A stretch of 32,079 bases of DNA from a virus. Positions 20,680-24,228 of the stretch are shown piece after piece. Numbering within the stretch: the first letter of the stretch is position 1; every line of letters begins with the position of its first letter. The position numbers were made by a program, and so were the translations under genes. The stretch is from the IMG/VR virus record IMGVR_UViG_3300047386_000392, positions 1-32,079 of that record; one strand, written 5' to 3'. The notes beneath the pieces are model-generated. The model did no database searches and was not told the origin of the DNA. It saw nothing but the letters and a program-made list of their open reading frames with translations.

Positions 20680-21321
20680 ATGGCTGAGAAAAAGAAAGAA
20701 TACATATCGTTTTCGGACATGTTTGATGGCGGTGGTGCTGGTCAGTCTGGCCCAGAATTTGAGGGCGGCGGGATCATTAGCGCGATCGGCAATAGCCTGG
20801 GCGGTCCTAAAATCTTTGGCGGTGCGTTTGCGAGCGGCGATGACGCGCCTGGCGGTGGCACGCGGATCAAGCACGAGCAGCCGGTTGGAATGTTTACCGA
20901 TGCGTTTGACGGCGGTGGTTTTGGTTATTCTGGCGATTATTTCGAGGGTGGCCCTTACTCGATGATAGCTAATATCCTGGGCATAAATCCGATGGGGTCT
21001 GAGAACCTTGCGCAGACTGTTGCGCAAAATCCGCAACCGCAACCGCAACCGCAAATGCCATTTGCAACAGCGACAAATCTTGGTGACACGAATGATCCGC
21101 TTGCGGCGATAAACCAGCCGGCAGGGTTCCCTGGAATGGCTGATACATCTGGACCAATTGCAAGCGGCATCCCGACCTTTTCTGAGTTTACTGAAGGTCC
21201 AGGCATTAAGTTTTTAAACGCCAGAACGCAAATGCAGATGTATGACGCGCTCTATGGTCGATCGCAGCCGGCGCCATCGTATTTCACTGGAATGGACGCT
21301 AGCGGGGGAATGCGGGTATGA
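20680..21321 (+). CDS. Hypothetical protein with internal Gly/Asp repeat
   Basis: 213 residues. Two copies of a module of about 35 residues: FSDMFDGGGAGQSGPEFEGG (residues 11-30) and FTDAFDGGGFGYSGDYFEGG (about 72-91), each followed by a hydrophobic I-x-x-I-x-N-x-L stretch. Then come a PQPQPQPQ spacer and a less complex C-terminus. The repeats suggest a structural or assembly role. GGAAG lies before the ATG; four-base overlap with the next gene. No known family. Confidence 0.7.
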   Translation: MAEKKKEYISFSDMFDGGGAGQSGPEFEGGGIISAIGNSLGGPKIFGGAFASGDDAPGGGTRIKHEQPVGMFTDAFDGGGFGYSGDYFEGGPYSMIANILGINPMGSENLAQTVAQNPQPQPQPQMPFATATNLGDTNDPLAAINQPAGFPGMADTSGPIASGIPTFSEFTEGPGIKFLNARTQMQMYDALYGRSQPAPSYFTGMDASGGMRV

Positions 21322-23612
21322 GCATTTACGATCAGCTGACTGGCGCGGCTCAAAATTACCAGGATTTTAGAAAGCGCGGTGGTTTTACTCCCCAGCTGTA
21401 CGGCATCATAGAAAACATCGGTGATACTGCCAGCTATTTTCTGAGCCCCAGAGGGCGCCAAGCGGCCATGAACGTGGTCGAGGTTGGCGATATGCTTAAT
21501 CCGGTCGGTGACACGCTCGATGGGATGCAAATGGCTGGTGAGGGCGATTATGTGGGCGCTATGGCCAACGTGGCTGGCCTTGCGATCCCAGCTGCCATTG
21601 TAGCGAAATACGGCCCTCAGACGGCGCTTGCAGCGGGTAAGGCAATCCAGGAAACCTTGACCGGCACCGGCGATAGCTTGGGCCAGGTCGGCGCTGATGT
21701 TTATGAGGCATTTATCCAGCGTATGAACCAGCCTGGCGAGATGCCGGCGGTTGGCAGTAACCTGGGGAATATTCCTACTTTCAATTTGCGAGATTTAATT
21801 GGAGCGCGTGTAGGCACGACTGTTGCTGACTTAACAAAAGCTGGCGATGATTATCGTGGTATTGATGCTTCAATAATTGATGAGCCTGAGCCTATGATGG
21901 GTGGCCCTGGTTATCCTTTGCTGCCAAGCAGTTTAGAAAATAATTTAATTTGGGCATCTGATGGCAAGCATGTTCAAACTAAAAAGTTAGCTCAGAAACC
22001 AGATGTTGTTGCAGTTACGGCAATGAACCCGTTGAGCCATCAATCAAATCGAAGCTTTTCAAATGCAACTTTAAAAACCATGCAAGCATATGTGCGCGAT
22101 GGAAGGTTAGAAAAAGCAAATATCGATCAATTAAATAAAATGGTACGCGCCGGCACAAATGATGCGAAAAACTCAGTGCCTGGTCTTGATAAATTCCCAG
22201 GATTTGACAGCCCAAATATCAATAAATTTATTGAAGGCGCAACTTTTGAGCAGCGCAAGCGGATCACACAAATATTAGGAACAAAGAAGGCGCTGGATTT
22301 GGGCGCTCCTAACGTAAACCGAATTACGCAAGAAACATTGGATGATAGATTTGCCGGCTCAAGCCAAGGCGACAGCGTTTTATTTATCAAGCCTGATTTA
22401 AGCTTAGATCCTGTGAATTTAGAGGCAGAAGGTTTGCCTCAACACCCCTCTTATCGATATGGGATTATGGGTGAAGTTTTGGGGCAATTGGATCAACCGC
22501 TTTCAACATTTAATTTATTTTCAAAATTTTGGAATGATGCTGGAATTAGTGAACGCGGTAGTGCGTTTAACAAAGGTGGCCGAAGAAAATTTGATATGAC
22601 TTTGCCGATCGAAGAAATTACCGGCGATAGGGTGAAACAGCTTGAAGAATTGATGCAGATTGAGGCTGCGTCTGGAAAAAGATTTTCAAATTCTGATGTT
22701 CGTGTTTTAAAAAATAGTATTGTGGGCGCCTGGAGATCATCTTTAGATAAAGTAACCGATGGGGGCATGTCACCGCAACTTTTTGCGGATGCTATTGAAA
22801 ACAGCAAGTACAAACCAGCCTTAACAAATTACACCGCAGCTGATGTGGCCAAAGGTAAGAAGGAAGGTACTTTCGAAGCCTTCCAGCTGGGCGATGATGA
22901 TTTATTTTTTGGCATCGATAAGGCGCCAGATTATAGCTGGATGGGTGTAGATGCTCAGCCTGGCGACAAATCTCTTGTCGGAGTTGTAAGCAATACTCCA
23001 GGCTTAAAGGGGCAAGCGGTGCCGGCTGTAATGGCCAAGGCTATTGAAGAAGGTGTTACGATGCTTGACGCTTTCGCGGTAAAGTCAGGTCGTTTCCCAG
23101 AAGGCTTTTTGCCAAATTATTATTCTCAATTTGGGTTTGAAGAGGCTGGAAGGATACCTTTCAGTAAAGAGTTTTATATTGAAGATCACGGCGAACAGGC
23201 GTATAAGGATTTGCTCCAAGCCTGGAAGTCAGATGGTTGGAGTGAAGACCAGGGATTTCCTGACCTGGTCGTAATGCGATGGAGCGGAAATGATGCAGAC
23301 AGAGCAAACGCGGCGGCAAGCATTCGTGGAGCAAGTGCGCAAGGTACTAGGCCCACAGCTGGGGGATTTGTCGCAGAAGCAGAAGGATCTTCTGGATCTG
23401 GGGCTGGACAAGCTGTTCGCCAAGAACCGGCCAGTGACGGACGAGGAACTGGAAGGCCAGCTGGAGCTAGTGGAGCTAGCAGCGCCCAGGGAACTGGAAG
23501 CGGCGTACAAAGTATTTTCGGCTTAACTGAAGACCAGCTTAGAAACAGAGGTTTAACCTCATCTGATCTTTTTGATTTGCAAGGCGTGCTTGGCACTTTA
23601 GGCGCACGCTGA
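21318..23612 (+). CDS. Large putative virion protein with GNAT-like C-terminal domain
   Basis: 764 residues. An N-terminal helical region has a hydrophobic AGLAIPAAIVAKYG segment near 90. The middle (about 210-560) starts LENNLIWASDGKHVQTKKLA and resembles large polyvalent or MuF-associated phage proteins. Near 565-650, AVKSGRFPEGFLPNYYSQFG ... and PDLVVMRWSG resembles the GNAT-like 'L..FY...GF.E..R..F......PD.V.M' module. Residues about 662-731 are a Gly/Ser/Ala/Gln linker in which a second gene is encoded in another frame. The last 33 residues look ordered again. Probably packaged in the head; assignment is by resemblance only. Confidence 0.65.
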   Translation: MSIYDQLTGAAQNYQDFRKRGGFTPQLYGIIENIGDTASYFLSPRGRQAAMNVVEVGDMLNPVGDTLDGMQMAGEGDYVGAMANVAGLAIPAAIVAKYGPQTALAAGKAIQETLTGTGDSLGQVGADVYEAFIQRMNQPGEMPAVGSNLGNIPTFNLRDLIGARVGTTVADLTKAGDDYRGIDASIIDEPEPMMGGPGYPLLPSSLENNLIWASDGKHVQTKKLAQKPDVVAVTAMNPLSHQSNRSFSNATLKTMQAYVRDGRLEKANIDQLNKMVRAGTNDAKNSVPGLDKFPGFDSPNINKFIEGATFEQRKRITQILGTKKALDLGAPNVNRITQETLDDRFAGSSQGDSVLFIKPDLSLDPVNLEAEGLPQHPSYRYGIMGEVLGQLDQPLSTFNLFSKFWNDAGISERGSAFNKGGRRKFDMTLPIEEITGDRVKQLEELMQIEAASGKRFSNSDVRVLKNSIVGAWRSSLDKVTDGGMSPQLFADAIENSKYKPALTNYTAADVAKGKKEGTFEAFQLGDDDLFFGIDKAPDYSWMGVDAQPGDKSLVGVVSNTPGLKGQAVPAVMAKAIEEGVTMLDAFAVKSGRFPEGFLPNYYSQFGFEEAGRIPFSKEFYIEDHGEQAYKDLLQAWKSDGWSEDQGFPDLVVMRWSGNDADRANAAASIRGASAQGTRPTAGGFVAEAEGSSGSGAGQAVRQEPASDGRGTGRPAGASGASSAQGTGSGVQSIFGLTEDQLRNRGLTSSDLFDLQGVLGTLGAR
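23290..23526 (+). CDS. Nested gene in the +1 frame of the 764-aa gene (78 aa)
   Basis: Starts ATGATG with GGAG at 23281-23284, five bases upstream. Translates to MMQTEQTRRQAFVEQVRKVL then GPQLGDLSQKQKDLLDLGLD KLFAKNRPVT and DEELEGQLELVELAAPRELE. This looks like a folded helical protein with alternating charged and hydrophobic positions, whereas the host frame over the same bases is a low-complexity Gly/Ser/Ala linker. That contrast and the good ribosome site argue that this frame is translated. It lies just before a membrane-anchored helical gene and the lysis genes. Function unknown. Confidence 0.62.
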   Translation: MMQTEQTRRQAFVEQVRKVLGPQLGDLSQKQKDLLDLGLDKLFAKNRPVTDEELEGQLELVELAAPRELEAAYKVFSA

Positions 23613-23836
23613 TGGAACTCCTCAATCAAATAATGACTTGGGTCGTGGCACCGGTAGCCGGCTACGTTTTCCTTCTGCACAAGACTGTGCAGGGCAACAG
23701 CGTTAAGATCGCTGTTCTAAACGCAGAGATAGCCAATCTGCGTGAGCTACATGGACGGGAAGTAAAGGACATGAAAGTGAGCATGGAGCGCATTTTCGAG
23801 AAGCTAGACAACATCGAGCAAGCACTGCGCAAGTAA
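23612..23836 (+). CDS. Membrane-anchored coiled-coil protein, possibly lysis-related
   Basis: 74 residues: one N-terminal membrane helix at about 6-23 (QIMTWVVAPVAGYVFLL), then a continuous coiled coil (IAVLNAEIANLRELHGREVK ... MERIFEKLDNIEQALRK). This topology is that of an i-spanin or holin-associated protein, but no motif settles it. It overlaps both neighbours by one base and precedes the holins by one gene. Confidence 0.7.
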   Translation: MELLNQIMTWVVAPVAGYVFLLHKTVQGNSVKIAVLNAEIANLRELHGREVKDMKVSMERIFEKLDNIEQALRK

Positions 23837-24228
23837 TGTTTGATCCGCTGTCTGGGCGGGGCACTGCATCACGAACTGGTCGCGCTGGAGAATACCTCGC
23901 CGCGCATTTCTTTGAGCGAAAAGGATTTACGGCCACGCTGGCATCAGCGGTGGGCTTTGATTTAGTTGTCGCCAAGCAGGGAAAAGTGTTCCTGGTTGAG
24001 GTAAAAGCACGGTTGAAGACGAAAGTAGACCGACCAAATCAGATGCGTTTTAAACTTACATCTAATCAAATCGAGGCCGATGCGTTTTGCTTTGTAAACT
24101 TGCGTGAGCAGCTGATGCTGTTTCGCAAAATTGATGATGTCCGGCACAAAAACCAGGTCACGCTTTTGGTCAAAGATTTCACAGAAAAAAATATGCACGA
24201 CAGCTTTGCGGAGATTTTTGAGCAATGA
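23836..24228 (+). CDS. PD-(D/E)XK nuclease (resolvase/YraN-like)
   Basis: 130 residues. Motifs: TGRAGEYLAAHFFERKGF with Glu19, AVGFDLVV with Asp42, and KVFLVEVKARL with Glu55-x-Lys57, giving the E...D...ExK core of the PD-(D/E)XK fold. The short size resembles YraN-like or archaeal Holliday-junction-resolvase-like proteins. It is unusually placed within the lysis module. It could trim branched DNA before packaging. Overlaps both neighbours (one and four bases). Confidence 0.75.
   Translation: MFDPLSGRGTASRTGRAGEYLAAHFFERKGFTATLASAVGFDLVVAKQGKVFLVEVKARLKTKVDRPNQMRFKLTSNQIEADAFCFVNLREQLMLFRKIDDVRHKNQVTLLVKDFTEKNMHDSFAEIFEQ

Follow-up and report, generated by a model that had tools for sequence, protein, structure and literature searches.

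To our knowledge, lysis cassettes apart, tailed phages have few convincing long nested genes on the same strand, and gene callers have a bias against genes that overlap. Phage genes that lie out of frame within larger ones are a known kind. Viral overlapping genes can arise by overprinting (reviewed in PMC8227390), an example being E within D of phiX174. For embedded spanins, one proposed route to embedding is that an upstream gene loses its stop codon and then runs on over its downstream neighbour (PMC6139136). An HNH endonuclease lies out of frame inside a mycobacteriophage DNA methylase (PMC12613952), and one GNAT family occurs in phage polyvalent proteins (PMC5512222).

We analysed a stretch of 32,079 nt (positions 1 to 32,079 of IMG/VR record IMGVR_UViG_3300047386_000392), hereafter the window. 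The record is that of a temperate tailed phage, with an integrase, a DNA primase/helicase, TerL, an SU10-type portal, a scaffold and a major head protein. Comparison with related sequences indicates that a genuine overlapping gene is very probably present, in which the +1 frame of the C-terminal linker of a modular effector would encode a small, soluble, acidic four-helix protein (77-96 aa). The nested frame was under purifying selection in every relative examined, and one stand-alone copy was found. Standard gene finders are expected to miss the small nested gene.

The host gene and its locus

The host gene (21318..23612, + strand) encodes a 764-aa modular protein of the polyvalent type. Its N-terminal module (aa 1-152; 21318..21773, +) is common to close relatives with different C-terminal cargoes. 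It is followed by a cargo segment (aa 153-655; 21774..23282, +) ending in a GNAT acetyltransferase-like domain at about aa 505-655, an assignment based on sequence matches and on fold matches (best Foldseek E 3e-3, probability 1.00). The host's own domains fell below the Pfam cut-offs. The Gly/Ser/Ala linker that the first-pass annotation had read over the nested ORF is indeed there: the host residues concerned (aa 658-736) are rich in these three amino acids, and aa 671-736 (23328..23525, +) are predicted to be disordered (pLDDT about 20), on the same bases as the nested gene. A C-terminal tail follows (FGLTEDQLRNRG...; 23526..23609, +), and in relatives the nested frame runs on into this region.

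The gene occupies a cargo-swap site between the gene for a 213-aa protein and a conserved 74-aa gene, in phages whose portals are 88-97% identical. The site holds either the common N-terminal module with one of at least three C-terminal cargoes or a different gene with metallopeptidase/LPD23 matches. The N-terminal module was 75-85% identical in L004, L005 and L011 and about 66% identical in L007, with unrelated cargo thereafter. The first three loci have one cargo in common, L007 has another, and the cargo of the window (aa 153-764) is its own. In L008, L010 and L015 this locus is occupied by an entirely different 539-aa gene, which matches LPD23 and DUF6782, and same-locus relatives also matched DUF7178, below cut-off. 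Portal-based relatives that lack the cargo were considered as evidence against the nested gene and rejected as such, the absence of this cargo showing only that it is exchangeable. Disparate domains, exchangeable modules and a packaging neighbourhood, with the genes lying between TerL and the portal, all agree with a polyvalent protein. The first-pass annotation had called the host a virion protein; its packaging in the virion and injection are plausible, as suggested by the position of its gene only. The second gene downstream of the host (23836-24228) is a candidate for a short PD-(D/E)XK-type nuclease; its product gave weak matches to Mrr_cat, UPF0102, YraN and Holliday-resolvase, and a diverged form (31% identity) occurs in L007, L008, L010, L011 and L015.

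The nested reading frame

The nested gene (23290..23526, +) has 78 codons from its first ATG and 77 from its second (23293), ends in TAA and lies wholly within the host ORF in the +1 frame, with the coordinates, frame and containment that the first-pass annotation had given. That annotation had also placed a GGAG five bases ahead of the ATG pair. Both the site and the pair are present, but the start kept across relatives is the second ATG and not the first, and the Shine-Dalgarno-like (SD-like) GGAG (23281..23284, +; identified by sequence match) stands 8 nt before it. The window copy lacks about 20 C-terminal residues relative to the rest of the family (93-96 aa from the conserved ATG). GC at codon positions 1, 2 and 3 was.74,.31 and.69 in the nested frame, an ordinary coding profile, and.69,.74 and.31 in the host frame over the same bases. 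This signature, though suggestive, was rejected as stand-alone proof, as the low GC3 of the cargo and the Gly/Ser/Ala composition can mimic it. The nested product was modelled as four helices (mean pLDDT 79.7), and on reading the nested sequences we saw neither a hydrophobic N-terminus nor a cysteine lipobox. The family comprises predicted four-helix proteins of about 96 aa that match no known family and whose function we can only infer.

Within this one genome, the length and openness of the nested ORF are not beyond chance. When the host linker of the window was recoded synonymously, the +1 frame was still open in 57% of trials. Host codons ending in TA or TG, the sole source of +1 stops, are rare in a Gly/Ser/Ala linker. 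Openness was rejected as proof of a nested gene. The minus strand over the same region is likewise open (164 aa). A longer nested ATG ORF of 158 aa (1724-2200, +) lies out of frame within a 343-aa ORF (1447-2478). It had no phage match by tblastn, and its host ORF had no PHROG.

Relatives and conservation of the start

Direct searches with the nested protein of the window gave no match in phages, plasmids, IMG/VR, GTDB genomes, Pfam, PHROGs, NCBIfam or the PDB. Relatives surfaced only through the host C-terminus: IMG/VR was scanned with host aa 480-764 and then with small alignments of the nested protein and of the cargo. The scans were IMG/VR-heavy, and near-identical contigs were collapsed. 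Besides the window, they yielded 17 distinct phage loci carrying this effector segment, at about 55% identity to the window. The selection set comprised 16 distinct host-nested pairs including the window, and L122 and L127 were added for the start-site check (18 sequences). L121, from a Pirellulaceae MAG, was dropped as too frameshifted. Cargo identity between the window and L082-L110 was 54-57%, and nested protein identity between the window and the distant phages was 54-63% (E 2e-24), the window being the most diverged member of the family. The N-terminal parts of the cargo relatives differ from that of the window. The L083 gene has a small HTH protein (TerS-like) on one side and TerL on the other. 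In L102 (2847-7406) the host gene is extended to 1519 aa, and the nested gene lies in mid-gene, followed by a further module.

Wherever the host gene extends to its C-terminus, the +1 frame is open, over 93-96 codons (77 in the window copy). Over the overlap this frame was open in all 16 distinct sequences, whereas none of 432 upstream windows of the alignment exceeded 9 of 16, and the +2 frame was open in none of the 16. Homologues with the host linker and a stopped nested frame, which the first-pass annotation had named as the outcome that would refute it, were thus absent from the aligned overlap (0 of 16). Three of the relatives (L107, L109 and L110) were retrieved by host-only patterns lying about 480 codons upstream and still kept the nested frame, so its retention is not an artefact of retrieval. 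The start ATG CAG AC was invariant in all relatives. The SD-like site 8 nt before this ATG, found by sequence match, was also conserved, as GGAG in most relatives and as GGAA in L082, L107 and L110; the nested gene thus has a putative translation start of its own.

Selection in the two frames

Substitutions changed their rhythm at the overlap. In the codon alignment, differences per codon pair at host positions 1, 2 and 3 were.199,.132 and.550 upstream and.328,.180 and.165 in the overlap. Fitch counts for the 16 pairs, made on a tree built from the upstream part (500 upstream and 78 overlap codons), gave 1.40, 0.85 and 4.70 changes per codon upstream versus 2.82, 1.51 and 1.33 in the overlap. 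The lowest value for host position 3 among 423 upstream windows was 4.15; the drop starts at the overlap, within which the most variable codon position switches to the nested third position. The same pattern was obtained for the window alone against all others.

The first-pass annotation had proposed overprinting with the nested frame under selection and a tolerant host frame, to be checked by comparing synonymous and non-synonymous change in both frames. Apparent dN/dS (Nei-Gojobori, with the usual caveat for overlapping frames) was 0.275 in the nested frame, 1.24 in the host frame of the overlap and 0.069 in the host frame upstream, so constraint over the overlap was stronger in the nested frame and the proposal was supported. 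Frame and protein are conserved and the nested frame is under purifying selection, as expected of an embedded gene. Fourfold sites differed in 61.5% of comparisons upstream; within the overlap the figure was 11.5% for the host frame and 31.1% for the nested frame. The nested value is still below that upstream, being 0.07 in the first 13 codons and about 0.4-0.5 later. The host frame thus retains a degree of constraint, chiefly where the overlap begins, and over the linker proper it is the freer of the two.

Alternative explanations

A high-GC Gly/Ser/Ala linker could leave the +1 frame open automatically and give it a coding-like composition. The frequency with which recoded linkers stay open, the other long nested ORFs in the window and a cargo GC3 that is low anyway, making the GC pattern weak by itself, all speak for such a chance frame. 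However, the nested protein sequence is conserved in all relatives, substitutions cluster at nested third positions, and host synonymous sites are frozen precisely across the overlap; this position-specific pattern in 16 sequences refutes a chance open frame, which we consider extremely improbable. We give equally little credence to a conserved RNA structure or packaging signal, rather than a protein, as the source of the synonymous constraint. Host synonymous positions are strongly conserved over some 240 nt, which speaks for such an element, but the changes follow the nested codon rhythm, keep the nested amino acids and introduce no stops. RNAalifold predicted a weak structure (covariation term -0.36), with a double change in 1 of 30 pairs and no RNA covariation over the overlap.

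The first-pass annotation had offered ribosomal frameshifting at this place as its alternative. A shift at aa 650-658 would give a host-nested fusion and no free small protein; the host could supply the N-terminal part, and in L087 and L092 the nested frame is open for 78-87 codons upstream. Against this, in 14 of the 18 sequences a nested-frame stop stands 5-8 codons ahead of the invariant ATG, the window included (TAA at 23272..23274, +), the sequences conserve an in-frame ATG together with an SD-like site, there is no obvious slippery run, and the stand-alone copy described below retains SD and ATG without the host part. Frameshifting is thus disfavoured, and we consider it very unlikely. 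Internal initiation is favoured because of the upstream stops together with the conserved ATG and its SD-like site. Ribosomes would start afresh at the conserved ATG behind GGAG, and one mRNA would yield both the large effector and the small protein. Overprinting, also proposed by the first-pass annotation, is supported as far as the overlap itself goes; its usual direction does not hold well, since the ends of free GNATs, codon use and the GC profile suggest that it was probably reversed. In the classical order the nested gene would have originated within a linker that already existed. That the shorter and more narrowly distributed frame is usually the newer one in viruses speaks for this order, as does the lack of a stand-alone source family in Pfam, PHROGs, NCBIfam and the PDB. 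Nevertheless, the nested product is predicted to be structured and has an ordinary coding composition, whereas the linker is disordered with poor codons, and free GNATs end exactly ahead of the overlap. We regard a linker-first origin as rather unlikely, though it is the most serious of these alternatives.

Which frame is older

The free GNATs of Streptomyces phage Saftant (gp74) and Pseudomonas phage PCS5 end 2-4 residues past the strand aligned to host PDLVVMRW, which is directly ahead of the nested SD and start. Since the nested gene starts at the point where free GNATs stop, the Gly/Ser/Ala linker is probably the more recent and the nested gene the older of the two, as far as sequence comparison can tell. 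In most relatives, though not in the window, synonymous codon choice in the nested frame agrees with the preference of the gene itself more closely than does that in the host frame. As the simplest account, we suggest that the nested gene originally lay just downstream of the GNAT domain as a separate gene. The effector frame would have lost its stop and been read out of frame over the small gene, and the read-through extension would now be the disordered Gly/Ser/Ala linker and tail. No genome with the ancestral, non-overlapping order (GNAT stop, then small gene) was found among the relatives. Read-through over an older neighbour, turning that gene into a flexible linker, would be a testable route to overlap, in which the frame usually taken for the new one is instead the older.

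Stand-alone and relic copies in bacteria

The search for stand-alone homologues of the 78-aa protein, which the first-pass annotation had suggested, gave one, reached through the phage relatives and not by direct search. It is a 308-bp copy of the nested gene in a Yoonia sp. MAG (L120:5990-6297), with 95% identity to L110. It runs from the SD region to shortly beyond the nested stop, lacks the GNAT and the remaining host gene, and has a TAA ahead of the host frame. Since its ends coincide with the SD and the stop and the host gene is missing, the nested gene was captured as a unit. About 7.5 non-synonymous and 4.5 synonymous differences show no clear purifying selection since the copy diverged, and the chromosomal copy may be decaying. 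No further intact copy was found among 397 genomes of the same family as Yoonia, and a look for the empty site of the insertion in 56 other genomes of the genus did not recover its flanks. The genes around the copy included no recognised defence system, with weak ZorB-like and PtuA-like matches only. A weak, short chromosomal match with two stops (G327/L130; L131, reverse strand; G327:C157:5649-5819; E 1.2e-5) adjoins ordinary chromosomal genes and may be a decayed relic of the nested family; it was left out of the analysis.

Function of the nested protein

The nested protein had no match in Pfam, NCBIfam, PADLOC, PHROGs or the PDB, and Foldseek with its model gave nothing significant in the PDB or BFVD. 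By these searches it resembles no known antitoxin family, unlike the small partner expected of a GNAT toxin-antitoxin pair. Because it almost always travels with the same effector segment, the small protein might act with the effector, for example by helping it to fold or to be packaged, or by neutralising it in the producing cell. This co-occurrence is enforced by the overlap itself, and the Yoonia copy shows that separation is possible. A fuller reading is speculative and, taken whole, unlikely: an effector and a dedicated partner (neutraliser or chaperone) would occupy the same bases, the effector having lost its stop and extended across the partner gene, and the pair would move between phages as one cassette. 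If so, the partner gene would be the coding source of the effector's disordered linker, and the inseparable cassette would have been grafted onto different N-terminal modules (the window versus L083, L091 and L102).

Comparison with known systems

Within the libraries searched, three features are new: the family, its placement inside a polyvalent effector, and a direction of overprinting that is likely reversed. The case offers strong per-position evolutionary evidence, a small-protein family absent from those libraries and one stand-alone copy.

The locus resembles the polyvalent proteins in its several modules, its place in the packaging and head gene region and its swappable effector domains, GNAT included; no nested gene is described there, and the word "overlapping" is absent from the text (PMC5512222). 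The HNH endonuclease inside a methylase (PMC12613952) is likewise encoded by a small gene lying out of frame within a larger phage gene; that protein is a homing-type endonuclease, whereas the nested protein here matches no endonuclease family. With lambda Rz/Rz1 the locus has in common a complete small gene embedded in the +1 frame of a larger phage gene and commonly left unannotated. Products of the Rz1 type are lipoproteins whose partner is an inner-membrane protein. The nested product here is instead predicted to be soluble and helical, with no lipobox or transmembrane stretch, its host is an effector of cytosolic type, unlike the inner-membrane spanin partner, and the family is unrelated, so the pair is not an embedded spanin. 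As in phiX174 E/D, two proteins are encoded by the same bases in different frames, with one frame dominating selection. Unlike E/D, the disordered product of odd composition is here the C-terminus of the larger gene, and it is the small nested protein that looks older.
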